Under the pieces are notes generated by a model, which saw only the letters and a list, made by a program, of their open reading frames with translations, made no database searches and was not told the origin of the DNA. 46,400 nucleotides of DNA from an uncultured Hyphomicrobiales bacterium (lineage in GTDB: Bacteria > Pseudomonadota > Alphaproteobacteria > Rhizobiales > Beijerinckiaceae), in contig CAISEY010000156.1 of the NCBI GenBank assembly GCA_903884435.1, positions 1 to 46,400 on the forward strand. Reading direction: 5' to 3'. This document shows positions 22,244 through 37,799 of this stretch, one piece after another (positions within the stretch are counted from its first letter, which is position 1; each line of letters begins with the position of its first letter). Both the position numbers and the translations under genes were made by a program.

Positions 22244-24043
22244 TCAGCGGTGGCGGGTGATCGTGTCGATCAGCGCGGGCTTGCCGCTCTTCACCACCTT
22301 CAGCGCGCGTTGCAACGCCGCCTTCACGTCCTTCGGATCCTCGATCGGGCCCTCGCCGTAAACGCCCATCGAGCGCGCGAGCGCGCCGAAGTCCGGTTCG
22401 GGGCCGTAGAGGTCCATGCCGATGTGGGCCTTCGCCTCGTCGGTGCCGCGCAGCCGCGCCATGCGAATCTGGTGTTCCCAGTCGTTGTAGTAGGCGCGGT
22501 TGTTGTACATGACGATGAGGATGGGGATTTCGTATTTCGCCGCGATCCACAGCGCGCCCGCGTCGAACATCAGGTCGCCGTCGGGTTGCAGATCGACGAC
22601 GAGACGCTTGTGTTTTTTATGCGCCAGCGCGACACCGAGCGACATGCCGATCTGCGTGGACGTGCCAAGCTCGACGCCGGGATGCCGCCAGGGCTTGTCG
22701 AAATCCCACAATTTGCGCACGCCGTTCTTGAGCGTGTTGGCGGTGAGCACCCAGTCCTCGTCCTTGATGACGTCCCAGACCTCGAGGGCGAGACGCTCGG
22801 TGGTCATGGGAGCTACGTCCCAGTCCTTTTTCGCGTCCTTCTGCCATTTCGCCCAGGTCTCGTCGTGGCGCTTGCCGATTTTCGCCTTGCGCGCGGCGAT
22901 TTTCGCCTGGAGCCTGGAGTCGCCGGCGATGCGTTTTTCGAGCATGTCGGTGAGCACGGGCAGGCCGAGCGCGGTGTCGCCGAGCGCGCGCACCGAGCAG
23001 GGCTGCATGCGGCAATAATCCATCGCCCATTTGCTGATGCCGACCTCGGCGAAGCCCATTTCCAGCCATTCCGCGTCGGCGTTGACGATGGGCGAGACGA
23101 CGCGGGTCGTGCTGTTGAGCTCGTGCGTCGCCTTTTCGAAGTCCTTCACGTCGAGGCCGAGCACCACGTCGACGCCCTTCAGCGCGGGCTTGTCGAGGCT
23201 GACGCAGAGCGGATGCCTGTTGGGGAAATTGAGCGCGTTGTTGATGTCCCACACGCCCGCGCCGATGGTTTCGGCGAGCCGCACGATGTTCTCGAACCCG
23301 CCCTCGCGACGGCCCGCGTATTCGGGCAGCAACAGCGGATAGTCGGATTTCAGCAGCCTGTCGGCGATCTGTTCGATGGCGGCGGGGTCCGGCATCATTT
23401 TCGACGGCGTCGCCACGGCGGCGGCCGGGTGCATGCGCGGCTCCTCCGTGATGGGCGCTTCCTGCAACGCGGCGTCGTAACACATGTAGATCGGGCCCTT
23501 CGGCTCGGTCGTCATGATCGAATAGGCGCGCGCGAAGCTCTCGGGCACGCCATGGATCGAGGTCGGCTGGTAATCCCATTTCACGTAGTCGCGCACGGCG
23601 TTGCCCTGCACGAGGGCGGTGTGGGTCCAGTCGATGTGCGGCCGGCGCTTGCCCTCGTCCATCGGGCCGGTCGCGCCCATGATGAAGATCGGAACGCGGT
23701 CGATGAAGGCGTAGTAGATCGCCATGTTGGCGTGCAGCAGCCCCACGAGATTGTGCAGGATCACGGCCATCGGCTTGCCGCAGGCCTTGGCGTAGCCATG
23801 GGCGATCTCGACCGCGATTTCCTCGTGGTTGCACAGCATCATCTGCGGATCGTTGCAGCCGTAGTTGATGAGCGAATCGTGCAGGCCGCGGAAGCTCGCG
23901 CCGGGGTTGAGCGTGATGTATTCGAAATCGTAGCGCTGGATGAGATCGACGATCACGTCCGATTGCCAGCCGCGCAACTTGTCGTTGGTGCGGTTGCTCT
24001 TCTTGCCTTTCGCCGTCGTTGTTTTCCGTGCCGCCTTCGCCAT
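22244..24043 (-). CDS. Thiamine-diphosphate-dependent enzyme, acetolactate synthase/benzoylformate decarboxylase-like
   Basis: Protein of 599 residues with the three-domain plan of ThDP decarboxylases and ligases. The catalytic Glu is in CNHEEIAVEIAHGYAK (about 74-75). The ThDP/Mg motif runs from DGD at 488 to NN at 514-515. The central domain reads SDYPLLLPEYAG and GVDVVLGLDV. Such enzymes decarboxylate 2-oxo acids or ligate aldehydes. A basic N-terminal tail of about 22 residues (Lys, Arg and Thr rich) precedes the first domain. The downstream partner of an acyl-CoA-dehydrogenase-fold gene, 38 bases apart; a 2-oxo acid intermediate is inferred. The start follows GGGAGGG. Confidence 0.88.
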   Translation of the reverse strand: MAKAARKTTTAKGKKSNRTNDKLRGWQSDVIVDLIQRYDFEYITLNPGASFRGLHDSLINYGCNDPQMMLCNHEEIAVEIAHGYAKACGKPMAVILHNLVGLLHANMAIYYAFIDRVPIFIMGATGPMDEGKRRPHIDWTHTALVQGNAVRDYVKWDYQPTSIHGVPESFARAYSIMTTEPKGPIYMCYDAALQEAPITEEPRMHPAAAVATPSKMMPDPAAIEQIADRLLKSDYPLLLPEYAGRREGGFENIVRLAETIGAGVWDINNALNFPNRHPLCVSLDKPALKGVDVVLGLDVKDFEKATHELNSTTRVVSPIVNADAEWLEMGFAEVGISKWAMDYCRMQPCSVRALGDTALGLPVLTDMLEKRIAGDSRLQAKIAARKAKIGKRHDETWAKWQKDAKKDWDVAPMTTERLALEVWDVIKDEDWVLTANTLKNGVRKLWDFDKPWRHPGVELGTSTQIGMSLGVALAHKKHKRLVVDLQPDGDLMFDAGALWIAAKYEIPILIVMYNNRAYYNDWEHQIRMARLRGTDEAKAHIGMDLYGPEPDFGALARSMGVYGEGPIEDPKDVKAALQRALKVVKSGKPALIDTITRHR

Positions 24044-26556: not shown

Positions 26557-27615
26557 ATGGATTTCGGGCTTTTTTCGAACGGGCAGCGCTACAACGAGAT
26601 CGCGCGGGACACCTACCGGGAAGACATGGACGAGGTAATCCTCGCCGACGAACTCGGGATGAAGGAAGCCTGGATCAGCGAACACGGCACCTTCGTCAGC
26701 TTTCACGCGCCGGACCAGATGCCGAGCGCCGATCTTTTCATCTGCAAGGCCGCGGCCCTGACGAAGACTATCCGGCTCGGGCCGGGCATTCGCCCGCTGC
26801 CGTTTTTCCACCCGATGCAGGTGGCGACGGACTGCGCGGTCTGCGACCATCTGACGGACGGTCGCTACATGGCGGGCTTCGGGCTGGGCCTGGGCGGCGC
26901 CGCCACGGAACCGCGCGGCAAACTGCCGGGGCCGCCGCGGGAAATGGCTTACGAGGCCATCGATCTCATCCTGAAGGCCTGGACCTCGCCGGAACCCTTC
27001 GACTGGAACGGGAAGTTCTGGCAGGGCAAGCAGTGGAAGATCATTCCCAAACCCTTCACGAAGCCGCGCATGGACGTGGGAATGGCCTGTTCGAAGAGCG
27101 ACAGCACGCTCGAAATCACGGCCGCCAGGGGGTTTCTGCCGCTGTTCAGCTGGCACCAGAAGTCCGCCGATCTCGCGAAGATGATCCGCACCTATCTCGA
27201 CGCGCCCGCTGGCGACGTGAAGCCCTCGCGCCGGCGGTTGCGCATGTCGCGCTTCGTCTATGTCGCGGAGACCGTCGAACAGGCCCGGCGCGACCTGCGC
27301 GACTGCGACGTGGGCTCGGCGAAGTTCAACCGGCTCAACGAATTCATTCCGCCGGGCGGGACGAAGGACGACCTCACCATGGAGCGCCTCATGGACGAGG
27401 GGCTGTTCTTCTGCGGCGATCCCGACAGCGTGACGCGGCAAATTCGCCAGTTTTACGACGAACTCGGCGGCTTCGGCACGCTGTTGCTGGTCTGCGGCAA
27501 GGACTGGGGCACGTGGGAACAGCGCCAGCGTTCGTGGAGAATGTTCATGCGCGACGTGGCGCCGCGCCTCGCCGATCTCGACGGGGCGAGCCCGGCGGGA
27601 CCGGCGAAGTCCTGA
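26557..27615 (+). CDS. LLM-class flavin-dependent oxidoreductase, second copy
   Basis: Protein of 352 residues of the luciferase-like barrel family. It starts MDFGLFSNGQRYNEIARD, followed by EAWISEHGTF, TIRLGPGIRPLPFFHPMQVA and GRYMAGFGLGLGG. The C-terminal part has EFIPPGGT, FFCGDPDSVTRQI and GGFGTLLLVCG, as in alkanal or aromatic monooxygenases that draw FMNH2 from a reductase. It is a single gene divergent from a TctC-like receptor and convergent with NadC. An upstream continuation of the frame across the receptor gene is antisense and not part of the protein. Confidence 0.88.
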   Translation: MDFGLFSNGQRYNEIARDTYREDMDEVILADELGMKEAWISEHGTFVSFHAPDQMPSADLFICKAAALTKTIRLGPGIRPLPFFHPMQVATDCAVCDHLTDGRYMAGFGLGLGGAATEPRGKLPGPPREMAYEAIDLILKAWTSPEPFDWNGKFWQGKQWKIIPKPFTKPRMDVGMACSKSDSTLEITAARGFLPLFSWHQKSADLAKMIRTYLDAPAGDVKPSRRRLRMSRFVYVAETVEQARRDLRDCDVGSAKFNRLNEFIPPGGTKDDLTMERLMDEGLFFCGDPDSVTRQIRQFYDELGGFGTLLLVCGKDWGTWEQRQRSWRMFMRDVAPRLADLDGASPAGPAKS

Positions 27616-27624
27616 ATCCGGGCC

Positions 27625-28482
27625 TCAGGCGATCTCGATGTCGAGGCCGACGTCGAGGATCGGCGCCGAATGGGTCAGCGCCCCCGACGACAGGAGATCG
27701 ACGCCGGTTTCCGCGATGGCCTTCACCGACTCGAGATTGATGCCGCCAGAGGCCTCGAACTTGACGCGGCCGGCGGACATTTTCACGGCTTCGCGCATCT
27801 GCTCGACGTTCATGTTGTCGAGCAGGCAGAAGTCGGCGCCTTCTTCCAGCACCTCGCGCAACTGGTCGAGCGTGTCGACCTCGATCTCCACCTTGACGAG
27901 GTGGCCGGCGGCGGCCTTCGCCGCGCGCAGGGCCTGTTTGATCCCGCCGCAAACCGCGATGTGATTGTCCTTGATGAGGAAGGCGTCGTCGAGGCCGAAC
28001 CGGTGGTTCATCGCGCCGCCGGCGCGCACGGCGTATTTCTCGAGGGCGCGCAGGCCCGGCGTCGTCTTGCGCGTGCAGCAGATTTTCGCGTTCGTGTGGG
28101 CGACGAGCGCGACATATTTCGCGGTCAGCGTGGCGATGCCGGACATGCGGCACACGTAGTTCAGCGCCACGCGCTCGGCGGTGAGAATGGCGCGCGCGTC
28201 GCCGGTGACGCGCGCGACAGGCGTGCGCTTGCCATCGACATGGGCGCCGTCCGCCGCCAGCGCCTCGAATTTCAGCGAGGGGTCGATCAGCCGGAAGGCG
28301 GCCTCCGCGACGGGGACGCCGCAGACGACGCCGGGCTTGCGCACGGCCATGACGGCGGTCGCCTGACGGCCGGCGGGGATCGTCGCCAGCGTCGTGATGT
28401 CGCCGGCGCGGCCAAGGTCTTCGTCGAGCGCGGCGCGCACGGCGTTTTCGAGATAGATCGGGTTGAAGAAAGACATGGCCAT
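27625..28482 (-). CDS. nadC: Nicotinate-nucleotide pyrophosphorylase (carboxylating), quinolinate phosphoribosyltransferase
   Basis: Enzyme of 285 residues that converts quinolinate and PRPP to nicotinate mononucleotide with loss of CO2. The N-terminal domain has DEDLGRAGDITT; the barrel has TAERVALNYVCRMSGIATLT, the phosphate loop CTRKTTPGLRALEKYAV, then NHRFGLDDAFLIKDNHI, KVEIEVDT, LLDNM and FEASGGINLESV, all typical of NadC. No nadA or nadB is nearby. It is the last gene of an operon with a Pht5-like decarboxylase and TctC-like receptors, so it may be a second copy working on imported pyridine dicarboxylates. The start has GGGAGG five bases upstream. Confidence 0.92.
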   Translation of the reverse strand: MAMSFFNPIYLENAVRAALDEDLGRAGDITTLATIPAGRQATAVMAVRKPGVVCGVPVAEAAFRLIDPSLKFEALAADGAHVDGKRTPVARVTGDARAILTAERVALNYVCRMSGIATLTAKYVALVAHTNAKICCTRKTTPGLRALEKYAVRAGGAMNHRFGLDDAFLIKDNHIAVCGGIKQALRAAKAAAGHLVKVEIEVDTLDQLREVLEEGADFCLLDNMNVEQMREAVKMSAGRVKFEASGGINLESVKAIAETGVDLLSSGALTHSAPILDVGLDIEIA

Positions 28483-28499
28483 TCGGGCCTCCCCTGTTG

Positions 28500-29483
28500 T
28501 CAGACGCGATGGGTGCCGCGCTTGCGGCCCTGGGACATTTCGAGAAACAGCTCTTCCAGCGGAATCTTTCGCTTCAGCATTCCGTTGCCGTGGGAATAGC
28601 CGATGAGCGTTTCGAGGTTGTTGCGGTTCTTCGGCGTCAGCCCGTATTCCCACGGGTCCTTGCCGAGCAGTTTGTCCTGTTCCTCCATCGCGTGACGCCA
28701 CCAGGCGAGCGGGGCGACGCGCGGGTTGAACATGCGTTTGACGCCGATTTCCTTGGCCTTTTCGAAGGCCTTGTAAAGTTCGATCGGCGCCCAGGGATAT
28801 TTCTCGACGATCTCGCGCTTGATGCCGGTGACGTGCATGATCGGGAAGATTTGCGTCTTCCGGTAAAACGCCACTTCCTCGGCCTTGTAGTCGTCGAACA
28901 GGCGCGCGATGGCGGGGTGGCCCTCGACATAGGGCTCGATCAGGTCCGTGTGCAGCACGGCGTCGAGTTCGCCGGAGATCAGCATTTTCTCGAGCGAGGC
29001 GTCCTCGGGCAGCGTCGTCAGCCTGAGGTCCGGCGGCGGCGCGAAGGCCACGTCCTCGTCGAGTTCCGCGTACCAGTCGATGGACTTGTGCGGCACGCCG
29101 TATTCATGTTCGAGAATGCCGCGCATCCAGAGGATCGCGCTGGCCTGGAAGGACTTGCAGCCGACCTTGCGGCCAATCAGGTCCTTTGGCGAGCGGATGC
29201 CCTTGCTTGTGTTGACGAAGACGAATTCGTGCCGGAAGCGGCGATGCAGGAAGACCGGAATGCCGTCGTTGGGCCAGCCGGCGTCGCGCGCGAGGAGGTA
29301 GGAGGACGCCGAGACTTCCGCGACATCGAACTCTCGGTTGCGCAGGAAGCGCCAGTGCCGCGTGGTGGAATCGATGTCGGTGAGCACGGTGAGGTTGATC
29401 CCGTCCGGCTTGACGGAGCCGTCCTTGAGCGCGCGCGTGATCTCGTAGTCGCCGCAGGCGAGGGTGAGCTGGATGTCGGCCAT
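28500..29483 (-). CDS. 4,5-dihydroxyphthalate decarboxylase (Pht5)-like protein
   Basis: Protein of 327 residues, no signal peptide: it starts MADIQLTLACGDYEITRAL. The sequence has the two-lobed plan of periplasmic binding proteins (FVNTSKGIRSPKDLIGRKVGCKSFQASA) but is cytosolic, as in Pht5 of phthalate catabolism, which removes a carboxylate from 4,5-dihydroxyphthalate. A receptor annotation in databases is possible because of the fold. The later motifs AELDEDVAF, EPYVEGHPAI and FPIMHVTGIKREIVEKYPW fit that group. It sits 17 bases before nadC. The substrate could be a phthalate or its pyridine analogue; I cannot tell which. Confidence 0.82.
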   Translation of the reverse strand: MADIQLTLACGDYEITRALKDGSVKPDGINLTVLTDIDSTTRHWRFLRNREFDVAEVSASSYLLARDAGWPNDGIPVFLHRRFRHEFVFVNTSKGIRSPKDLIGRKVGCKSFQASAILWMRGILEHEYGVPHKSIDWYAELDEDVAFAPPPDLRLTTLPEDASLEKMLISGELDAVLHTDLIEPYVEGHPAIARLFDDYKAEEVAFYRKTQIFPIMHVTGIKREIVEKYPWAPIELYKAFEKAKEIGVKRMFNPRVAPLAWWRHAMEEQDKLLGKDPWEYGLTPKNRNNLETLIGYSHGNGMLKRKIPLEELFLEMSQGRKRGTHRV

Positions 29484-29558
29484 TGACGGGTCCCGGTCCG
29501 GATTCGGATACGGTCTTGATACATCGGCGTGGCGCAAAAACAAATCGCGCCAGCCCGC

Positions 29559-30593
29559 TCATTCCTGAAGCAGCGAGATCGCCCGTCGCAGGAGTTCGGG
29601 CGGCGCGGAATAGGCGCGGCGCAACAGCGCGGTCACGTCCTCGCCCGAGGTGAATTGCACCTCGACGCCGGCTTTCTCCGCGTCGCGCAGGAAGTCCGGA
29701 TCCTTCAGGGTTCTGGCGAAGGCCTCGCGCAGCGCGGCGACGCGATCGGCGGGCACGTCCTGAGGCGCGAAGAAGGGGCGGCCCATGTCCTGCGGCGCGA
29801 GCAGCAATTCCAGCAATCGCCGGTCCTCCGGCGTTCGCGCCATGTCCTGCGCCAGCGGCACGTCGGGAAGATCGGGATGCTTGCCCAGCGCCATCTGGAA
29901 CAGCAGGTTGATCTTTTTCTCCTTCAGCCATTCCGCCTTGCGCAGCTTCAGATAGGTCCAGCCGATGCCGCAAAAACCCTGCACCTCGCCGCGCTCCATG
30001 GCGAGGAGAATTTCGATGCTGCCGGGATAACCGGTCACGAGGCGGAATTTCGTGCCGACGACCTTGTTGAGCATTTTCGGCATCGAGACCTCGAGCGAAT
30101 CCGAGCCGGTGCCGCCGCCGACGAATTCATGGGTTAGCAGATCGTTCATGGTCTTCAGCGGCGTGTCGCGCCAGGAAATACACGTCGAGTTTTCGATGTT
30201 GGCGTTGCCGACCCAGTTGAACTTCAAAGAGTCGAATTGGGCCTGTTTGTTGCCGAGCAGCGGCTCGAAGGCGGCGTTGCGGCTGCTGATGGCGAATTCG
30301 GTTCCGTCGCGGGGCGATTTTTGCGCGACGTAATTCGCCACGACGAGGCCGCCGGCGCCGGGCATGTGCTGGGCCACGAAGGCCGGATTGCCCGGCAGGT
30401 GGCGCCCCATGTAGCGCGCGAGAATCTCGGCGTAAAAGCTGGAACTGCCGCCAGGGCCAAAGCCGATGAGAACGCGCACGGTCTTGCCGCGGTAGAAGTC
30501 GGCGACCGCCGATTGCGCCCGCGCGACGTCCGCCGCGCCGAACAGGACAAAAGCCGCCGCGACGAGCCTTCGCGACCATGACCACGCCAGCAT
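29559..30593 (-). CDS. TctC/Bug-family periplasmic receptor (VADFYRGK type), tandem copy 2
   Basis: Protein of 344 residues with a signal peptide ending ADVARA; mature start QSAVADFYRGKTVRVLIGF. Motifs are FGPGGSSSFYAEILARYM, MPGAGGLVVANYV and CISWRDTP. It is a tandem copy of the gene at 30609, 15 bases away: the C-terminal portions are almost the same, with the run ALREAFARTLKDPDFL present in both. They differ in the pocket loop (SSSFYAE against SSTIYAD) and in the middle part, so ligand range may have split. Cysteines in ENSTCISW and VQGFCGIGW match the subgroup. Confidence 0.88.
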   Translation of the reverse strand: MLAWSWSRRLVAAAFVLFGAADVARAQSAVADFYRGKTVRVLIGFGPGGSSSFYAEILARYMGRHLPGNPAFVAQHMPGAGGLVVANYVAQKSPRDGTEFAISSRNAAFEPLLGNKQAQFDSLKFNWVGNANIENSTCISWRDTPLKTMNDLLTHEFVGGGTGSDSLEVSMPKMLNKVVGTKFRLVTGYPGSIEILLAMERGEVQGFCGIGWTYLKLRKAEWLKEKKINLLFQMALGKHPDLPDVPLAQDMARTPEDRRLLELLLAPQDMGRPFFAPQDVPADRVAALREAFARTLKDPDFLRDAEKAGVEVQFTSGEDVTALLRRAYSAPPELLRRAISLLQE

Positions 30594-30608
30594 GGCTTCC
30601 TCCGTTGG

Positions 30609-31631
30609 TTATTGCTGCATCAGTTCGACCGCGCGGCGCACGACCTCCGGCGGAGCGGCGTAGGCGCGCGCCAGCAGATCGCGCACGGCCTCGCCCGAGG
30701 TGTATCGCACCTCGACGCCGGCCTTTTCCGCGTCGCGCAGGAAGTCCGGATCTTTCAGCGTTCTGGCGAAGGCTTCGCGCAGGGCGGCGACGCGGTCGGC
30801 GGGAACCCCGGGCGGCGCGAAGAAAGGGCGGCCCATTTCCTGCGGCGCGAGCAGAAGCTCGAGAACCTGGCGGTCTTCGGGCGTTCTCGCGAGGTCGGCG
30901 ACGAGCGGAACGTCGGGAAGCTCGGGGTGCTTTTCGAGCGCGAGCTGGAAGAGAATGTTGATCTTCTTTTCGGCGAGCCAGTCCGCCTTGCGCAATTTCA
31001 GGTAGGACCAGCCAATGCTGCAAAACCCCTGCAACTCGCCGCGCTCCATGGCGAGCATGATGTCTACGCTGGACGTGTAGCCGGTGACGAGGCGGAATTT
31101 CGTTCCCGCCAGCCTGTTCAGCGCCTTCGGTATGGCTATGGCGAGGGAATCGGAGCCGGTGCCGCCGGCGACGAGTTCGTGTTCCAGCAGGTCCGCGGCC
31201 TTTTTCACGGGCGAGTCGCGCCAGGAAATACACGTCGAGCTTTCGACGTTGGCGTTGCCGATCCAGTTGAGCTCCAGCGGATCGAAGGTCGCGTTTCTGT
31301 TGCCAAGCAGCGGCTCGAAGGCTCCGGTGCGCGCGGTGATGGCGAATTCCGTGCCGTCGCGCGGCGCGCGCCGGGCGACGTGGTTCGCCACGACGAGGCC
31401 GCCGGCGCCGGGCATGAGCTGGACGACGAAGGCTGGGTTGCCTGGCGTGTGCCGGCCCATGTAGCGCGCGAGAATGTCGGCGTAGATCGTCGAACTGCCG
31501 CCGGGGCCGAAGCCGACGAGCACGCGCACGGTCTTGCCGCGGTAAAAATCCGCGACCGGGGTCTGGGCGAGGACGGGCCGGGCCATCGCCGTCACGAAAA
31601 GCAGCGCGCCCGCGGCGAGTCTCGCGAACAT
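30609..31631 (-). CDS. TctC/Bug-family periplasmic receptor (VADFYRGK type), tandem copy 1
   Basis: Protein of 340 residues with a signal peptide ending RPVLA and mature start QTPVADFYRGKTVRVLVGF. The start is preceded by GGGGGAG. Key segments are FGPGGSSTIYADILARYM, LNWIGNANVESSTCISW, VTGYTSSVDIMLAMERGEL and LQGFCSIGW. It follows the bicupin gene after a 114-base gap holding a 12-base-pair hairpin (31659-31687), so its expression may be set apart from the bicupin and EutA-like genes. The relation to copy 2 points to recent duplication. Confidence 0.88.
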   Translation of the reverse strand: MFARLAAGALLFVTAMARPVLAQTPVADFYRGKTVRVLVGFGPGGSSTIYADILARYMGRHTPGNPAFVVQLMPGAGGLVVANHVARRAPRDGTEFAITARTGAFEPLLGNRNATFDPLELNWIGNANVESSTCISWRDSPVKKAADLLEHELVAGGTGSDSLAIAIPKALNRLAGTKFRLVTGYTSSVDIMLAMERGELQGFCSIGWSYLKLRKADWLAEKKINILFQLALEKHPELPDVPLVADLARTPEDRQVLELLLAPQEMGRPFFAPPGVPADRVAALREAFARTLKDPDFLRDAEKAGVEVRYTSGEAVRDLLARAYAAPPEVVRRAVELMQQ

Positions 31632-31658
31632 GTCTCCCCCGGTTTGTTCGTGACTTTG

Positions 31659-31687
31659 TCCGGTCCGCGATCTCGTCGCGGACCGGA
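31659..31687 (-). terminator. Perfect 12-bp inverted repeat between bicupin and receptor genes
   Basis: Arms TCCGGTCCGCGA (31659-31670) and TCGCGGACCGGA (31676-31687), loop TCTCG. It lies 59 bases past the bicupin stop and 28 bases before the receptor start on the minus strand. With no T tract it could be a partial terminator, an mRNA stability stem or an operator. Confidence 0.55.
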
Positions 31688-31745
31688 GCATTGATCGACC
31701 GCCGCGCTTACAGCCCGCGTGGCGAGACGGAAGCGACCCGCGGCT

Positions 31746-32861
31746 TCAGGCTTTCTTCGTGAAGAACTTGTCCATCTTCTGATCGACGCCGGTCTTCTTC
31801 GTGGCCTCGATCCAGATCTGCTGGATGCGCGGATCCTGATCGTCGTATTCGACCTGGTCGCCGCCTTCCTTGATGGAGGTGGAAACCGCGCCTTTTTCGC
31901 CGGGCTTGAGGCCAATGAGCGAACGGCGGTTGGCCGTCGTGAGCGGATAGCGCAGGCCGCCGACGCCGGTGGCGAGATAGCGCGCCGGCTCGCGGCTCGT
32001 GTTGAAGTGCTGGTGGAACTGCTGGTCCGCCGGCGGGAAGACGACGCCATGCCCCCAGTCGATGCGAAGGAAATCCTTTTCCTTGTCGAACCACAGGAGC
32101 GAATAGCCGGTGCCGGTCACGCACATGACGTGGAAGCCGGGTCCGTGGCGGTGGCCCTTCTTGTAGGTGCCGACCGGCATTTCCGAGATATGCGCGTGCA
32201 TGGTGCCGTCGGCGAGCACGAACATGATGTTGGTGCCGCCGGCGCCGCGGTCGCCCCAGGTCTTCAGCTCGATGGCCGCGAGATCGGGAACGAAATTCGT
32301 CTCCCACATGTGGTTGCCCGGGCGCACCGTGATGAGGTCGCCCTCGCCGTTGTAGTAGGCGGTCTTGCCCGAACGCTCCATGAAGGCGACGTCCGTGTCG
32401 AAGATGAACTTCTCGTTGTGGAAGAGGTTCATCACCATCGGAAAATCGGTGGTGGTGACGAGCAGCGCGCGCTCGCGGCCGCTGGAGTTGAAGTGGCGGT
32501 GCTTCGCGTTGAGCGGAATCGCGAACAGCGCCTTCGGGCCCCATTCAAAGCTGCGCTTGCTGCCGTCGGGGAACTCGAGCTGCGTCGAGCCCGAGCCTTC
32601 CAGCACGTAGTAGACGTCTTCATACAGATGTTTCTGTGGGGTCGTCGAGCCGCCCGGCGGCACGTCGATCAGGAACATGTTGCTGAAGTCGCCGCGGCCC
32701 TTCAGGTGCACGGCGGCGCCCTTGACGCCATAGCGCGGCCACATCCTCGTTTCGACCTTGAAGAGATCGATGCCGTAATCCTCCGTGACCGGAAGGCCTT
32801 CCTTCGCGACCCAGTCGAGATAGGGATCTATCCCGTACCGGGCGGTGATCTGTTCGTTCAT
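31746..32861 (-). CDS. Bicupin protein (often labelled ethanolamine ammonia-lyase-activating), function unknown
   Basis: Protein of 371 residues with two cupin barrels. The first has HLYEDVYYVLEG (H78, E81) and PLNAKHRHFN (H121, H123). The second has KKGHRHGPGFH (H237, H239, H244) and FHQHFN (H283, H285), so each barrel shows plausible metal ligands; the second has the full set. Ring-cleaving gentisate-type dioxygenases are bicupins, so an oxygenase is possible, but the DLVAA-type family core is not visible. As I recall, databases name relatives ethanolamine ammonia-lyase-activating because they sit next to EutA-like genes, as here (gap 36 bases). No ethanolamine ammonia-lyase gene is in the window. 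Confidence 0.8.
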   Translation of the reverse strand: MNEQITARYGIDPYLDWVAKEGLPVTEDYGIDLFKVETRMWPRYGVKGAAVHLKGRGDFSNMFLIDVPPGGSTTPQKHLYEDVYYVLEGSGSTQLEFPDGSKRSFEWGPKALFAIPLNAKHRHFNSSGRERALLVTTTDFPMVMNLFHNEKFIFDTDVAFMERSGKTAYYNGEGDLITVRPGNHMWETNFVPDLAAIELKTWGDRGAGGTNIMFVLADGTMHAHISEMPVGTYKKGHRHGPGFHVMCVTGTGYSLLWFDKEKDFLRIDWGHGVVFPPADQQFHQHFNTSREPARYLATGVGGLRYPLTTANRRSLIGLKPGEKGAVSTSIKEGGDQVEYDDQDPRIQQIWIEATKKTGVDQKMDKFFTKKA

Positions 32862-32897
32862 GACTGCCTCTTTGGAATGGATTGATGGAATCGGGCT

Positions 32898-34403
32898 TCA
32901 GGAGAAGAGAAGCGACTTGATGACGACGGGCACGACGCCCGGCGGGGTGATGAGTTCGCCGACATCGACGAAATCGAGTTCCTGCAACTGCACGCCGTCG
33001 ATGGAGACGAGTTCGCCCGGCAGGTCGAATTCGCGCTTGAGAAGATTGCCCATGGTCTTGCCGACGTCGCCGTCGATCATCAGCAGCAGCGGCGCGTGGC
33101 GCTTTCCGCCGGGCGCGCAGGCCTCGAGAATTCCCTTCGCGCAGGCTGCGAGGCGCGAATATTCCGGATCGCCCGCCCAGGAGAAAGACACCGCCATGCG
33201 GCCGCCGGGCTCGATGTCGAGCTGTTCGAATTTCTGCGTGATCGCCTTCGCGATGGCGCCGGAATCAATTTCGCCAGAGAGGTCGAGGCCGATTGGCACG
33301 ACGGGCACGTTGTGGACGGGCAGCACGTCGGGCGACGACAGATAGATCGTCTTGCCGCTCACCTGAACCGTGAATTGCGAGGCGCCGATGACTGTGGCGC
33401 GGATGCGGCTGCCGGGATCGACGACGGGCAGCTTGCTGCGCGCCTTGAGACCGTTGCGGACCTCCATGGCCAGCATGCGCGCGATGTCGCCGAATTCCTT
33501 CGATTCCGTCTCGAAAATATATTCGGAGACGCCGCCGGAGAAGGTCAGCGCGTCCGGCGCGAACGACCGGTCGAGCGGCTCGGTCAGTTCGAGTTCGCGG
33601 CCGAGCGCGTCGGTCGCGCCGCCCATGATCTGGTCGACCGCGAGCACGGCGAGGCGGGAGGCGATCTTCTGGCGCACGGCGGGATCGGCGAGGGTTTTCG
33701 CGTCGGTCTCGAGGCCGAGTTCCCGGGCGACGAGCCAGGCCGACTGGTCGACGCGCGTGTAGGCGCCCTTGTCGTCCGTGGCGACGAGGCGCCCGCCGAC
33801 GGCGAAGGCGGCGACGGACTTGATGACGCCCTTCACGATGAGGGCGAGCTTCGTGGTGCCGCCGCCGATGTCGACGTGGAGCACGGTGTTCTGGCGGTCG
33901 CGCGACAGGGCGACGGCGCCCGAACCATGCGCCGCGAGCGTGCACTCGAGCTTGTGTCCCGCCGTGGCGCAGACGAACTTGCCGGCCTGGTCGGCGAAGA
34001 GTTCGTCGATGGCGCGCGCGTTCTTGCGCTTGATCGCCTCGCCGGTGAGGATGACCGCGCCGGAATCGATGTCCGAACGCTTGACGCCCGCTTCCTTGTA
34101 GGAATCGTGAATGAAATGATCGAGCGCGTGGGCGTCGATGGTGCCGTCGGCGACGAAGGGCGTCAGCATGATCGGCGAGCGCCAGATCACCTCGCGTTTC
34201 GTCACGAGAAAGCGGCTCGACAGGCCCTGCGACTGACGCTGGAGCGTCACTTTCGCGAAGAGCAGATGCGACGTGGACGACCCGATGTCGATGCCGATCG
34301 TGTTGAGTTCGACCGATTCCTGCGACCAGATAAACCTGGCCATCGCCTCCTTGTCGGCCTCCGTCAGGGCGGCGTGTTCATGGTCGAAATCGATGTCGTG
34401 CAT
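32898..34403 (-). CDS. EutA-like reactivating ATPase (ASKHA fold)
   Basis: Protein of 501 residues, close to the EutA length with a longer N-terminus. Phosphate-1 loop GIDIGSSTSHLLF (about 37-49), TGEAIKRKNA (120-129), phosphate-2 loop VDIGGGTTKLAL (177-188) and the adenosine motif FSGGVSEYIF (288-297) are intact. EutA exchanges damaged cobalamin for fresh coenzyme in ethanolamine ammonia-lyase. Here neither EutB/EutC nor any other B12 enzyme is found, so its client is unknown. The start ATG at 34403 follows AGGGGAAGAC; an upstream ATG at 34421 is less well placed. It leads the six-gene stretch down to nadC and has a clear promoter. Confidence 0.86.
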   Translation of the reverse strand: MHDIDFDHEHAALTEADKEAMARFIWSQESVELNTIGIDIGSSTSHLLFAKVTLQRQSQGLSSRFLVTKREVIWRSPIMLTPFVADGTIDAHALDHFIHDSYKEAGVKRSDIDSGAVILTGEAIKRKNARAIDELFADQAGKFVCATAGHKLECTLAAHGSGAVALSRDRQNTVLHVDIGGGTTKLALIVKGVIKSVAAFAVGGRLVATDDKGAYTRVDQSAWLVARELGLETDAKTLADPAVRQKIASRLAVLAVDQIMGGATDALGRELELTEPLDRSFAPDALTFSGGVSEYIFETESKEFGDIARMLAMEVRNGLKARSKLPVVDPGSRIRATVIGASQFTVQVSGKTIYLSSPDVLPVHNVPVVPIGLDLSGEIDSGAIAKAITQKFEQLDIEPGGRMAVSFSWAGDPEYSRLAACAKGILEACAPGGKRHAPLLLMIDGDVGKTMGNLLKREFDLPGELVSIDGVQLQELDFVDVGELITPPGVVPVVIKSLLFS

Positions 34404-34454
34404 GTCTTCCCCTGGCGCCAAGCGCGCCTCCTTTTGATTAGCTCTCTAAGACGT

Positions 34455-34483
34455 TCTCTAGCGAGGCGGCGGGCGGTTGTCCA
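34455..34483 (-). promoter_or_regulatory. Candidate promoter of the EutA-like/bicupin operon
   Basis: Minus strand TGGACA (34478-34483), 17-base spacer, TAGAGA (34455-34460), about 52 bases before the start at 34403. A second -10-like TTAGAG lies further on. The class II aldolase stop is just upstream. Confidence 0.5.
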
Positions 34484-34503
34484 CCCGCGCCCCGCGGGCG
34501 GCT

Positions 34504-35250
34504 TCAGATGTCCCAGTCCCGCGCGACGACGCCCTTCGTCTTGGCGCCCTCGATGTAATAGCGCCAAAGCTTGTTCACGTGGCGGCCGCGTTTGAAGTAG
34601 AGCTCGAAGGAGGCCATGTCGGCGTCCGTCAGGGGCGCGACCTTGCCGATGGCGGCGGCGTTGTACATGGCCATGGCGTTCTCGACGAAGTGGATGGAAT
34701 CGTTGAGCACGGCCTCGACGCTTTCGGCGGTGATGACCTGACCGTGGGCGCGGATTTGAAGCGCGTGATGATCGCCGAGCGTCCTGACGACGGCCTGGCC
34801 CAGGTCCGCGTTGGCGACGTGGGCGGGATCGGCGTGGACGGGGAGTCCGCTCGTCCAGCGCACCGCGTGGTTCTTGACGACGCGCAGGGGAACGCCCTCC
34901 ACCAGCGTGAAGGAATTGGTCTGGTCGTGGTGGAAGTGCGCGACGGAGTTGACGTCCTTGCGCGAGCGCAGGATTTCGCCGTGCAGGGAGACTTCCGCCG
35001 GGGCCTTTTCGCCGGCCGGTCCCTCGAGAATGTTGCCGTCGTAGTCGCACACGAGCAGATGCTCGGGGCGCAGGCCATTGCGCGGCTGGTCGATGGTCTG
35101 GATCAGGAAGGCGTCGCGGCCAGGCAGGCGCGCGCTGACGTGGCCGCTGTAGTTCATGATCTTCTCGTCGACGAGAATCGCCGTGCAGGCGGCGACTTTC
35201 ATGCGCAATTGCAATTCGCTGTTGTGAGACTGGGGCGACGGCTGGTTCAT
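34504..35250 (-). CDS. Class II aldolase/adducin-family protein, second copy
   Basis: Protein of 248 residues with metal ligands in VAHFHHD (H-x-H) and IRAHGQ, and the acidic residue in APAEVSLHGEI. The N-terminal half has NYSGHVSARLPGRDAF and IQTIDQPRNGLRPEHLL. It is not a close copy of the gene at 4409: the metal site is FHHD rather than IHPP and the C-terminal part (YFKRGRHVNKLWRYYIEG) differs. An aldolase, epimerase or decarboxylase acting on a hydroxylated acid is possible. It is read toward the EutA-like gene but that has its own promoter in the 100-base gap. Confidence 0.85.
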   Translation of the reverse strand: MNQPSPQSHNSELQLRMKVAACTAILVDEKIMNYSGHVSARLPGRDAFLIQTIDQPRNGLRPEHLLVCDYDGNILEGPAGEKAPAEVSLHGEILRSRKDVNSVAHFHHDQTNSFTLVEGVPLRVVKNHAVRWTSGLPVHADPAHVANADLGQAVVRTLGDHHALQIRAHGQVITAESVEAVLNDSIHFVENAMAMYNAAAIGKVAPLTDADMASFELYFKRGRHVNKLWRYYIEGAKTKGVVARDWDI

Positions 35251-35298
35251 GAATTCCTCCCGGAAATGGACTGGCGGGAGCCTCCCGCGATCGGCGCG

Positions 35299-35327
35299 AC
35301 CATTGCGATTTCGCCCGGGTTTGTCCA
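35299..35327 (-). promoter_or_regulatory. Possible promoter of the second class II aldolase gene
   Basis: Minus strand TGGACA (35322-35327), 17-base spacer, AATGGT (35299-35304). The -35 box matches that of the EutA operon but the -10 box is poor. A GCGGGAG/CTCCCGC stem follows in the leader. Confidence 0.28.
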
Positions 35328-35349
35328 GTCCGCCCGCGCGGCGAACCTC

Positions 35350-35379
35350 TTGCCAGCGTTCGCTCGCGGGGCCTAAGGT
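35350..35379 (+). promoter_or_regulatory. Candidate promoter of the DUF6644 gene pair
   Basis: TTGCCA (35350-35355), 18-base spacer, TAAGGT (35374-35379), about 90 bases before the ATG at 35470, in the divergent gap 35251-35469. Confidence 0.38.
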
Positions 35380-35469
35380 GCGTCAACGACAAGTTCCGGC
35401 CCCGAGCCGCGGACCGAAAACATCAGGCCCGTCTTCGCGCGCGGCGGATGGCGCGGGGGAGGGTGATCG

Positions 35470-35946
35470 ATGCTCAAGCCATTCTGGATCTGGCTCGACC
35501 ATTTTTGCGAAAACCTCGAGGCGACGCCGCTCAGCCAGGCCATCCAGACGATTGTCTGGGTCATTCCCACCGTGCAGATCATTCACATCGTGGGCATCGC
35601 CGCCGTGATGGGCTCCGCCTTCATGCTCAACGCGCGGGTCGCCGGGCTCGTCGATCGGGACGAGGACGCGGGGAGCGTGGCGCGGCGCTTTTTGCCGGTC
35701 ATCTGGTGGACCCTTCCGGTTCTGCTCGCGACCGGGGCGGTGATGATCATCGGCGAACCCGGACGCGCCCTCAAGAATCCGGTGTTTCACGCGAAGGTCG
35801 CGTTGATCCTCGTCGCCATGGCGCATCTGTGGTTTTGCCAGCGGCGTCTGCTGGCGGGGACCGCGAACGCAGCGGCCGTCGTGCTCCCTTCCATCGTCCT
35901 GTGGCTCGGCATCGTCTTTTGCGGTCGCTGGATCGCCTATTTCTGA
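35470..35946 (+). CDS. DUF6644-like membrane protein
   Basis: Protein of 158 residues with four hydrophobic segments. The first reads VQIIHIVGIAAVMGSAF with a His in the membrane part; the third reads FHAKVALILVAMAHLWF with another His. The following gene has a related layout. DUF6644 proteins have no known function. GAGGGTGATCG ahead of the start gives the ribosome site. The gene pair precedes an MFS transporter gene that starts 110 bases later, so shared function is possible but not shown. Confidence 0.72.
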   Translation: MLKPFWIWLDHFCENLEATPLSQAIQTIVWVIPTVQIIHIVGIAAVMGSAFMLNARVAGLVDRDEDAGSVARRFLPVIWWTLPVLLATGAVMIIGEPGRALKNPVFHAKVALILVAMAHLWFCQRRLLAGTANAAAVVLPSIVLWLGIVFCGRWIAYF

Positions 35947-35985
35947 CCGCGCTCTTCCCTCCACCCGTTCGCGAGGACCCGAAAC

Positions 35986-36480
35986 ATGTGGCTCGACGCC
36001 CTGCTGCAATCCCTGCAGGACACTTCCTTCGCGACGGAAATCCGCGAAAACGAAAATCTGTTTCCCTGGATCGAGTCGTTTCACGTCCTCGCGATCACGC
36101 TCGTCGTCGGCACGATTTCCATCGTCGATTTGAGGCTGATCGGCGTCGCCTCGATGGATCGCGCCGCCGGCGCTCTCGTGCGGAGCGTGGTGAAGATCAC
36201 CTGGGGCGCTTTCGCGGTCGCCGCGCTCACGGGCGGGTTGCTCTTCTCGGCGAACGCATCGACCTACGGCCACAACTTTTTCTTCCGCGGCAAGCTCGTT
36301 CTGCTGGCGCTCGCGGGACTCAACATGGCTTTTTTTCACCTCTTTTCAGCGGCGGATCTCGACACGTGGGGCGCGGGCGCGACGCCGCCGTTTCGCGCGC
36401 GGCTCGCCGGGGCGTTGTCGCTGACGCTCTGGATTTGCGTCATCGGCTTCGGGCGATGGGTTGGCTTTACCTTGAAGTAG
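35986..36480 (+). CDS. DUF6644-family membrane protein
   Basis: Protein of 164 residues, four hydrophobic segments. The first reads FPWIESFHVLAITLVVGTISIVDLRLIG, a pattern I recall from DUF6644. The third ends LAGLNMAFFHLFSA. Histidines in these two helices align with those of the preceding protein, which suggests a bound cofactor such as haem b shared in the family. It starts 39 bases after the first. Its role is unknown; related membrane proteins sit near energy or redox genes, but that is inference. Confidence 0.75.
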   Translation: MWLDALLQSLQDTSFATEIRENENLFPWIESFHVLAITLVVGTISIVDLRLIGVASMDRAAGALVRSVVKITWGAFAVAALTGGLLFSANASTYGHNFFFRGKLVLLALAGLNMAFFHLFSAADLDTWGAGATPPFRARLAGALSLTLWICVIGFGRWVGFTLK

Positions 36481-36590
36481 CGGCGTCGCCGGCCCGGAGC
36501 GCCGTCTCCGCGAAGGCCGGGCGGAGCCTTTCGCGCCCCGATGGCGACGCCGCGCTTGCGGAGGCGCGCGGCAGGCTGCAAAAGCTCTGC

Positions 36591-37799
36591 ATGGCGTCTC
36601 GTCCTCCGTTTTTCGAACCGCTCCGGCAGGAGCGCCGGCTGCTGCCGCTTCTCGTGATGATCTGTTTCATCATGAGCGGCAGCGGCATCGTTTCGCCGAT
36701 CCTGTCGATCTACGCGCAAACCTTCGGCGTCGCCGCGACGCTGGTCGGCACGCTCGTCACCATGTTCGGGGTCGGGCGGCTCGTCGCCAATTTTCCCGCC
36801 GGCATCCTTTCGCAGCGCGTCGGCCGCAGGCCGCTGCTGATCGTCGGCCCGCTGATCGTGGCCGCCGCCTCGCTCGGCGCGGCGCTCGCCACGGGGTTCG
36901 TCTGGCTCGTCGTCTGGCGGTTCTTCCAGGGGCTTGGCTCGGGCATTTACATCACCGCGTCCATGGCCGCGATGGCCGACATTTCACCGCCCGGCCGGCG
37001 CGCGGGCAACATGGCGCTCTACCAGACCGCGCTGCAAATCGGGGCGACCATCGGACCGGGCATCGGCGGATACGTCGCGCAATGGTTCGGCTACGCGGCG
37101 CCATTCTGGGTTTACATGTGCGTCGGACTCGTCGCCGCGGCGACGGCGATCTTTTCCTTCGACGACACGCTCAACGTGGCCGAGGCGCGCAAGCCGCTGC
37201 CCTCGTCGGTGCGCCGCGTCGGGATGATGACGGAAGCCTTCACCGTCGTCTGCGTTCTCACGCTGGCGATTTTCTTCACGCGCGTCGTGACCCTGTTCCA
37301 GCTCATCCCGCTGCTGGGCGCGGAAACCTTCGGCCTCGACGTGGGCACGATCGGCCTCGCGCTGACGGTCTGCGCCTTCACCAATCTGTTCGGCTTGCCG
37401 GTGACGACGCCGCTGATCGAGAAATTCGGCGCGCGCGCCGTCGTCATCGGCACGTCGCTGGCGACGGCGATCTCGATGGCCATGCTCTGGTTCGATTCCA
37501 GCGTGATCTGGTTCTGGTCGTCCGTCGCCATCATGGGCGTCGCCATGGGAATCAGCTATCCCGCGATCTCCTCTTACGTGATTGGCTGCCTGCCGCGCGA
37601 GCGTTACGGACCGGGCATGGGGATGCAACGCACCTTTGGCGACGTGGGCTTCGTGTTCGGCCCCGTCATCGCCGGCGCCCTCGACGATGTCGCCGGTCCC
37701 GGCCACACGGCCGTGATTGTCCTCAATGTCGGATTTCTCGTCGCCTGCACGCTGCTGTTCGCGGTCGGCAGCCGGGGGAAGCTGGCGTTCGGCGACTGA
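36591..37799 (+). CDS. MFS transporter
   Basis: Integral membrane transporter of 402 residues, about 12 helices in two halves. The loop between helices 2 and 3 reads GVGRLVANFPAGILSQRVGRRPLL, the DHA/antiporter family signature region. Helices 4-5 have GSGIYITASMAAMADISPPGRRAG and MALYQTALQIGATIGPGIGGY, as in drug-proton antiporters. It may export or import an organic acid. The start has no strong ribosome site and may be set at another codon nearby. Its stop is three bases from the stop of a gene on the opposite strand. Confidence 0.87.
   Translation: MASRPPFFEPLRQERRLLPLLVMICFIMSGSGIVSPILSIYAQTFGVAATLVGTLVTMFGVGRLVANFPAGILSQRVGRRPLLIVGPLIVAAASLGAALATGFVWLVVWRFFQGLGSGIYITASMAAMADISPPGRRAGNMALYQTALQIGATIGPGIGGYVAQWFGYAAPFWVYMCVGLVAAATAIFSFDDTLNVAEARKPLPSSVRRVGMMTEAFTVVCVLTLAIFFTRVVTLFQLIPLLGAETFGLDVGTIGLALTVCAFTNLFGLPVTTPLIEKFGARAVVIGTSLATAISMAMLWFDSSVIWFWSSVAIMGVAMGISYPAISSYVIGCLPRERYGPGMGMQRTFGDVGFVFGPVIAGALDDVAGPGHTAVIVLNVGFLVACTLLFAVGSRGKLAFGD

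Follow-up and report, generated by a model that had tools for sequence, protein, structure and literature searches.

A EutA-like ATPase paired with a bicupin suggests ATP-driven maintenance of a cupin metal enzyme

What does a EutA-like ATPase serve when no ethanolamine ammonia-lyase is encoded beside it? The question is raised by a stretch of 46,400 nucleotides (the window) from the draft genome of an uncultured Hyphomicrobiales bacterium (assembly GCA_903884435.1, contig CAISEY010000156.1), in which a gene for a EutA-like protein directly precedes a gene for a bicupin. EutA exchanges adenosylcobalamin for damaged cobalamin, as described in the available text of PMC9426561. An earlier note, made from the letters of this DNA, had presented the bicupin as the immediate partner of the ATPase, had seen neither EutB nor EutC in the window and had proposed another client, either the bicupin or a lyase encoded elsewhere. 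The bicupin was correctly located, and queries with EutB and EutC likewise found nothing in the window. Since the ATPase adjoins a bicupin both here and in most of the loci examined, a maintenance role is suggested, in which the EutA-like ATPase maintains a bicupin metal enzyme.

The neighbourhood survey proposed in the earlier note was carried out on 80 loci with flanks, the best 80 among 518 relatives that were confirmed in GTDB genomes. In a first pass, a bicupin was found next to 74 of 86 EutA-like genes, with three at an edge and nine without. The extended set comprises 103 EutA-like genes from the profile searches, the paralogues of the own genome (that of the window), an order survey and two rhizobial plasmids. 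Here a bicupin lies within 442 bp of 90 genes, on the same strand in 84 of these pairs (downstream in 43, upstream in 41), at a median gap of 34.5 bp and at no more than 100 bp in 72 of the 90, compared with a chance expectation of about 1% of genes having a bicupin neighbour (about 20 copies, about 5000 genes assumed). Among the 13 genes lacking a close bicupin, two (L047 and L007) are accompanied by a bicupin fragment that the contig end truncates, one (L058) has an antisense frame that resembles a bicupin by eye, and four (L069, L086, L097 and L008) are themselves at the edge of a contig. Within five genes of the ATPase, the counts for the three bicupin clusters were 46, 25 and 6 loci, and that for the next cluster, Rieske oxygenase, was 15; one locus may count twice, EutA itself was called in 79 of the 80 loci, and cluster names here and below were mostly assigned by eye, some being checked by Pfam or NCBIfam and none curated. 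Other neighbours vary by locus, including Rieske, UbiD, thiamine pyrophosphate (TPP) and aldolase-type enzymes and ATP-binding cassette (ABC) or TctC transport. Four rhizobial loci (L059, L066, L070 and L073) carry two pairs in tandem, each from a different clade. Protein fusion was dropped as a proof of partnership, as no open reading frame (ORF) matched both the EutA-like and the bicupin profiles. Two single-domain cupin genes were seen downstream of a Pseudonocardia bicupin/EutA-like pair (L076, 12115-13327).

The two proteins also occur together at the level of genomes. A bicupin is present in all 50 genomes with EutA-like genes that were drawn from the 80 loci, with 1 to 31 matches each. 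When 337 genomes were sampled from the order on taxonomic grounds, seven held a bicupin and eight a EutA-type protein (up to five bicupin and four EutA candidates being scored per genome); the same seven genomes, from seven different families, hold both the bicupin and the EutA-like protein, and the eighth, G187, has a canonical EutA, 31% identical, that adjoins EutB. In a 398-genome phylum sample, with up to five candidates scored per genome, the bicupin was found only in the own genome. From this linkage and co-occurrence, it is very probable that the EutA-like protein and the bicupin are functional partners.

Further evidence comes from the matching of clades. EutA-like proteins form three clades, named I to III here. 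Clade III is found with bicupin group 1 in all eight pairs and clade II with bicupin group 4 in four of five; in the fifth, L043, the assigned bicupin also adjoins another EutA-like gene. Distance matrices of the EutA-like proteins and the bicupins correlate with r of 0.74, whereas 2000 permutations yielded 0.23 at most, and within clade I with r of 0.55 against a permutation maximum of 0.13. Among the 86 of 90 pairs compared, all eight clade III pairs combine an ATPase lacking the N-terminal His motif with a bicupin lacking H244.

The window protein is a full-length member of the EutA family, covering positions 2-474 of the 475 of PF06277, and shares 28-35% identity with the EutA of 21 plasmid records. 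It has the three ASKHA motifs, which are conserved in 64 relatives, and its predicted fold matches ASKHA proteins; the intact DIGSSTSH, DIGGGTTK and FSGGVSEYIF reported earlier all translate where they had been placed. An alternative TTG start 18 bases further out would extend the ORF to 34421. The AlphaFold2 model has a mean predicted local distance difference test (pLDDT) score of 84.3, falling below 50 at residues 1-11, and its best Foldseek matches include 1hux and 3h1q. Through these structures, the ASKHA fold is shared with the activator of 2-hydroxyglutaryl-CoA dehydratase (component A) and with EutJ, whereas the template modelling (TM) scores are only 0.27-0.32 by query length and nothing here indicates an iron-sulphur role. 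The protein differs from EutA in several respects. It misses the NCBIfam EutA equivalog cut-offs widely (316.6 against 598, 270.1 against 769, 229.6 against 799 and 202.4 against 952), no EutBC adjoins it and mostly none is present in the genomes, and its N-terminus carries an additional segment, which in clades I and II includes a His motif. The 103 EutA-like and 11 canonical proteins separate in a quick tree with 98% Shimodaira-Hasegawa-like approximate likelihood ratio test (SH-aLRT) support, although the canonical side has long branches, so that the separation needs care. K185 occurs in 100% of the 103 EutA-like proteins, whereas the position is N in 10 of the 10 canonical proteins compared; S42, A158 and S342 are likewise T, G and G in these ten. 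The residue comparison took in 10 of the 11 canonical proteins, and the divergent eleventh, L106, also has N at position 185.

The N-termini differ between the clades. Those of clade I mostly read MHD followed by DFDHEH or a variant, those of clade II are rich in His and Asp, one member being also His-rich at the C-terminus, and clade III has neither the N-terminal His motif nor a His-rich terminus. Across 64 EutA-like proteins, H2, H8 and H10 of the motif each show at least 90% conservation, and the motif is absent from the five canonical EutA proteins compared. By record titles, the EutA-like group reaches Actinomycetota, Myxococcota and Chloroflexota, making four phyla in all. The own draft genome holds four full-length EutA-like genes; a supposed fifth, L005, was dropped, as it matched with 30 bits over 72 positions and the ORF and the next one read by eye as FtsA and FtsZ. 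One paralogue bears a very His-rich C-terminal tail (L006, 6233-6320, contig C105). Where the contig ends L006 1-200 (C105) and L007 1-200 (C46) run through a bicupin gene, they overlap exactly over 62 bases, and the EutA-like genes of clades II and III in this genome are therefore probably part of a single locus.

The classical client is missing. The genome-wide check for eutB that the earlier note had called for returned no match to PF06751 in the whole own genome; as this is a draft of 5.3 Mb in 461 contigs (93.5% complete, 6.9% contaminated), the absence alone is weak evidence. No EutB- or EutC-like ORF was found in 95 EutA-like loci (1.63 Mb searched), so that eutBC lies beside none of them; as a positive control, the same queries recovered EutB in each of the 11 canonical loci and EutC in every one of the six whose flanks were long enough. 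EutB is lacking in 44 of the 50 genomes with EutA-like genes and present in six. The large subunit of diol dehydratase was absent from 24 of 25 genomes, with one match, in a search that had no positive among the control genomes. Most genomes of this client survey are metagenome-assembled, and completeness is not given for those reached via loci. Canonical EutA adjoins EutB in 11 of the 11 cases checked, and on the plasmid records of three haloarchaea, Cetobacterium, E. coli and Acetoanaerobium both EutB and EutC adjoin it, before or after. In the phylum sample, where up to three EutA and otherwise up to four candidates were scored per genome, EutA matches occurred in 312 of the 398 genomes, many of them short, and a match had to exceed 200 bits to be counted as EutA; six genomes qualified, five with EutB at most 160 bp away and the sixth being the own genome. 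EutB exceeded its cut-off in 79 genomes of the sample, only five of which had EutA above 200 bits; by these scores, most ethanolamine lyases of the sample seem to lack EutA. EutB or another B12 lyase was set aside as the client, in view of the absence of EutB, the rarity of diol dehydratase and the lack of EutB and EutC in the 95 loci. The alternatives posed in the earlier note thus part ways: the bicupin stands as the best candidate, a lyase elsewhere is not supported, and judging from these sequences an ammonia lyase is improbable as the client.

The bicupin has a predicted fold like those of gentisate and salicylate dioxygenases, several families being close in Z in the structure comparison, where absence from the match list excludes nothing. 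Its conserved His set is complete in the C-terminal barrel 2, where H237, H239, H283 and H285 are 99-100% conserved in 109 relatives, in accord with the full metal site that had been assigned to the second barrel. Barrel 1 has H78 and E81, and the HxH is missing in most sequences. The bicupins that accompany clade III have I or V at position 244. The bicupin fold is thus common to this protein and to gentisate and salicylate 1,2-dioxygenases, to which it is 10-15% identical, whereas the full site lies in the C-terminal barrel here and in the N-terminal barrel there, according to the available text of PMC4019311. From the same text, homogentisate 1,2-dioxygenase is also a bicupin with its active site in the C-terminal cupin, although it has a 2-His-1-carboxylate set, whereas most sequences here have His at those positions. 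In contrast to oxalate decarboxylase and MncA (13-15% identity), the bicupin here has a full His set only in barrel 2. Naming the protein by sequence alone was given up, as a PDB sequence search gave only two weak matches, 3bu7 and an auxin-binding protein, and the match to 5-aminosalicylate 1,2-dioxygenase (NF049978) was weak, at 25.6 bits against an equivalog cut-off of 650. This model is matched by 40 of 44 bicupin relatives at E<=0.001 (best 2.5e-08), and the Pfam/NCBIfam-type libraries searched assign no function to this large family. Fold, ligands and neighbours suggest that the bicupin may be an aromatic oxygenase. The own genome holds about 20 bicupins, some truncated at contig ends; these copies often adjoin TctC-type binding proteins (L190-L204). 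Another genome, G438, has 31 matches, and the family is expanded in some environmental bacteria (20-31 copies).

Several features may be read as hints, and no more, of a metal role: the His motifs, a NicO-type nickel/cobalt transporter, a TerC protein and a CobW-type GTPase. The NicO-type gene directly follows the EutA-like gene in L090, where single cupins also follow it, and is assigned by cluster in L091 and L094; the NicO-type cluster occurs in all four bicupin-less loci, about 8 kb away in L098. In L067 and, by cluster assignment, in L064, a TerC gene stands two genes beyond the EutA-like gene. About 7 kb from a bicupin of the own genome, a gene for a CobW-type metallochaperone-like GTPase adjoins a Rieske-like gene (L198, 8146-9141).

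Cobalamin-lyase reactivases, including the diol-dehydratase reactivase, serve B12 enzymes. The observations are explained most economically if a lineage of reactivases exchanged a cobalamin-lyase client for a cupin metalloenzyme. The bicupin would be a mononuclear metal enzyme like gentisate or salicylate dioxygenase, with a 3-His, often 4-His, site in its C-terminal barrel that presumably holds iron or manganese and supports oxygenase activity. The EutA-like protein may bind, in physical contact, bicupin molecules that have an oxidised, empty or blocked centre; by binding and hydrolysing ATP, its ASKHA core would open the site, and the metal would be replaced. The ATP-driven opening of the client would have been carried over from EutA, with a metal ion instead of cobalamin as the cargo, and the N-terminal His/Asp motif may give or take the metal. 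The chances are about even that the ATPase acts on the bicupin by repair or metallation, and a bicupin with a dedicated ATP-driven maintenance factor is an equally balanced proposition as the full explanation. More tentative still, the branch may be an ATP-dependent reactivase of the metal centres of cupin oxygenases with the His-rich arm as a metal handle in two of the three clades, for which the balance lies somewhat on the negative side.

A number of points weigh against maintenance of the bicupin by the ATPase. The evidence for partnership is genomic, and interaction, metal and activity are predictions. The covariation and correlation figures ignore shared descent along the species tree, and the joint loss of the His motif and H244 in clade III is probably a single event. 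As clade III has no N-terminal His, the motif is not essential to the whole group, and metal transporters occur in few loci. Co-occurrence partly reflects the joint transfer of neighbours and rests on seven positive genomes. The bicupin is 2.9 kb from the EutA-like gene in L006 and 6.5 kb in L054, and the loci L090, L091, L094 and L098 contain none. Furthermore, most of the own genome's bicupins (about 20, against four EutA-like genes) have no adjoining EutA-like gene; the ATPase would therefore have to act in trans or serve only some of them.

Other roles for the ATPase have to be weighed against maintenance. It might be a catabolic enzyme, namely an ASKHA kinase or a substrate-activating ATPase whose target would be the substrate or product of the bicupin, given that other ASKHA members are kinases, some of them among the structural matches, and that a HyuA-like cluster occurs in several loci. 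However, the pathway neighbours vary while the bicupin is constant, about 20 bicupins share four EutA-like proteins in one genome, and the top-scoring named relatives are EutA reactivases, so that this role is rather unlikely. The same relatives speak against an assembly or folding chaperone that would help the bicupin form oligomers with no metal exchange or repair, as do, weakly, the His motifs and metal transporters. ASKHA proteins do include chaperones, and linkage, co-occurrence and clade matching would fit such a role just as well; it is judged unlikely all the same.

Lower probabilities attach to the two explanations in which the bicupin is no client. A shared regulon with joint transfer, the proteins having no direct contact, would yield both linkage and co-occurrence and is compatible with the gene order differing between groups; it is improbable, because the pair is found in four phyla by record titles, in three clades and in same-strand and divergent layouts, and the clades match even within single genomes. 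A classical reactivase for a coenzyme-B12 lyase encoded elsewhere would agree with PF06277 membership and with the few genomes that have EutB (6 of 50) or diol dehydratase (1 of 25). This is disfavoured as highly improbable by the lack of EutB in the own genome and the other survey genomes and of EutB and EutC in the loci, by the unreached equivalog cut-offs and separate tree group, and by the absence of any Rfam match near the operon.

Should maintenance of the bicupin prove true, ATP-driven cofactor repair would extend from B12 enzymes to mononuclear metal oxygenases, for which inactivation poses a practical difficulty in biocatalysis, and a large bicupin family with no library-assigned function would gain a testable role. 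To our knowledge, no ASKHA repair ATPase has been described for a mononuclear non-haem metalloenzyme, and this would be the first. No account of a EutA-cupin pair was found in the mainly open-access literature searched; the system would be a variant in which a EutA-family ATPase has another client, probably a metalloenzyme. The results also suggest that 'ethanolamine ammonia-lyase reactivating factor EutA', the database name given, for example, to a Phyllobacterium zundukense plasmid gene, is a misnomer for this branch.

In the window, the pair belongs to a closely spaced minus-strand run of an aldolase, the EutA-like ATPase, the bicupin, two TctC-type proteins and an NMT1-like protein (Table 1), with gaps of 100, 36, 54 and 15 bp among the first five genes. 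The position of the aldolase-type gene before the EutA-like gene is matched in loci L023, L024 and L025.

Table 1. Features of the EutA-like/bicupin run in the window
Feature	Position	Strand	Remarks
Class II aldolase/adducin-type protein	34504..35250	-	First gene of the run; PF00596 86.7 bits
EutA-like ASKHA ATPase, 501 aa from ATG	32898..34403	-	PF06277 381.7 bits, cut-off 27
N-terminal MHDIDFDHEH motif, candidate metal-binding segment, predicted disordered	34374..34403	-	EutA-like clade I
Phosphate-1 motif DIGSSTSH	34266..34289	-	By translation; D39, G41, S42 invariant in 64 EutA-like proteins
Phosphate-2 motif DIGGGTTK, including diagnostic K185	33849..33872	-	By translation
Adenosine motif FSGGVSEYIF	33513..33542	-	By translation; G290, G291, V292, E294 invariant in 64 EutA-like proteins
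Bicupin, proposed client metalloenzyme, 371 aa	31746..32861	-	36 bp downstream of EutA-like gene; Cupin_2 in barrel 1
H78-x-x-E81, barrel 1, incomplete or second site	32619..32630	-	H78 93%, E81 100% (109 bicupins)
H237-x-H239, proposed barrel 2 metal ligands	32145..32153	-	Each 99% (109 bicupins); by translation
H244, barrel 2, usual cupin Glu position	32130..32132	-	82% His (109 bicupins)
H283-Q-H285, third proposed ligand and second His, barrel 2	32007..32015	-	100%, 99%, 100% (109 bicupins); by translation
TctC-type solute-binding protein	30609..31691	-	54 bp after bicupin; PF03401 35.4 bits
Second TctC-type solute-binding protein	29559..30593	-	PF03401 30 bits
NMT1-like protein	28500..29543	-	PF09084 18.7 bits, under cut-off 20.5
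NadC gene (quinolinate phosphoribosyltransferase, QRPTase)	27625..28482		After NMT1-like gene; NadC score 327.5 vs 198.4

The NMT1-like protein resembles, as judged by eye, the cluster protein that follows the bicupin in L022-L025 (cluster 20). The QRPTase gene was dropped as a clue to a cofactor, since it scores as a genuine NadC and is therefore probably housekeeping. No match to Rfam families, such as the cobalamin riboswitch, was found at window positions 27000-36600. Farther along, a TPP-dependent enzyme is encoded at 22244-24043 (NF006203, 250 bits, under the cut-off of 456); Phyllobacterium and Rhizobium have a similar enzyme in their bicupin/EutA-like operons.

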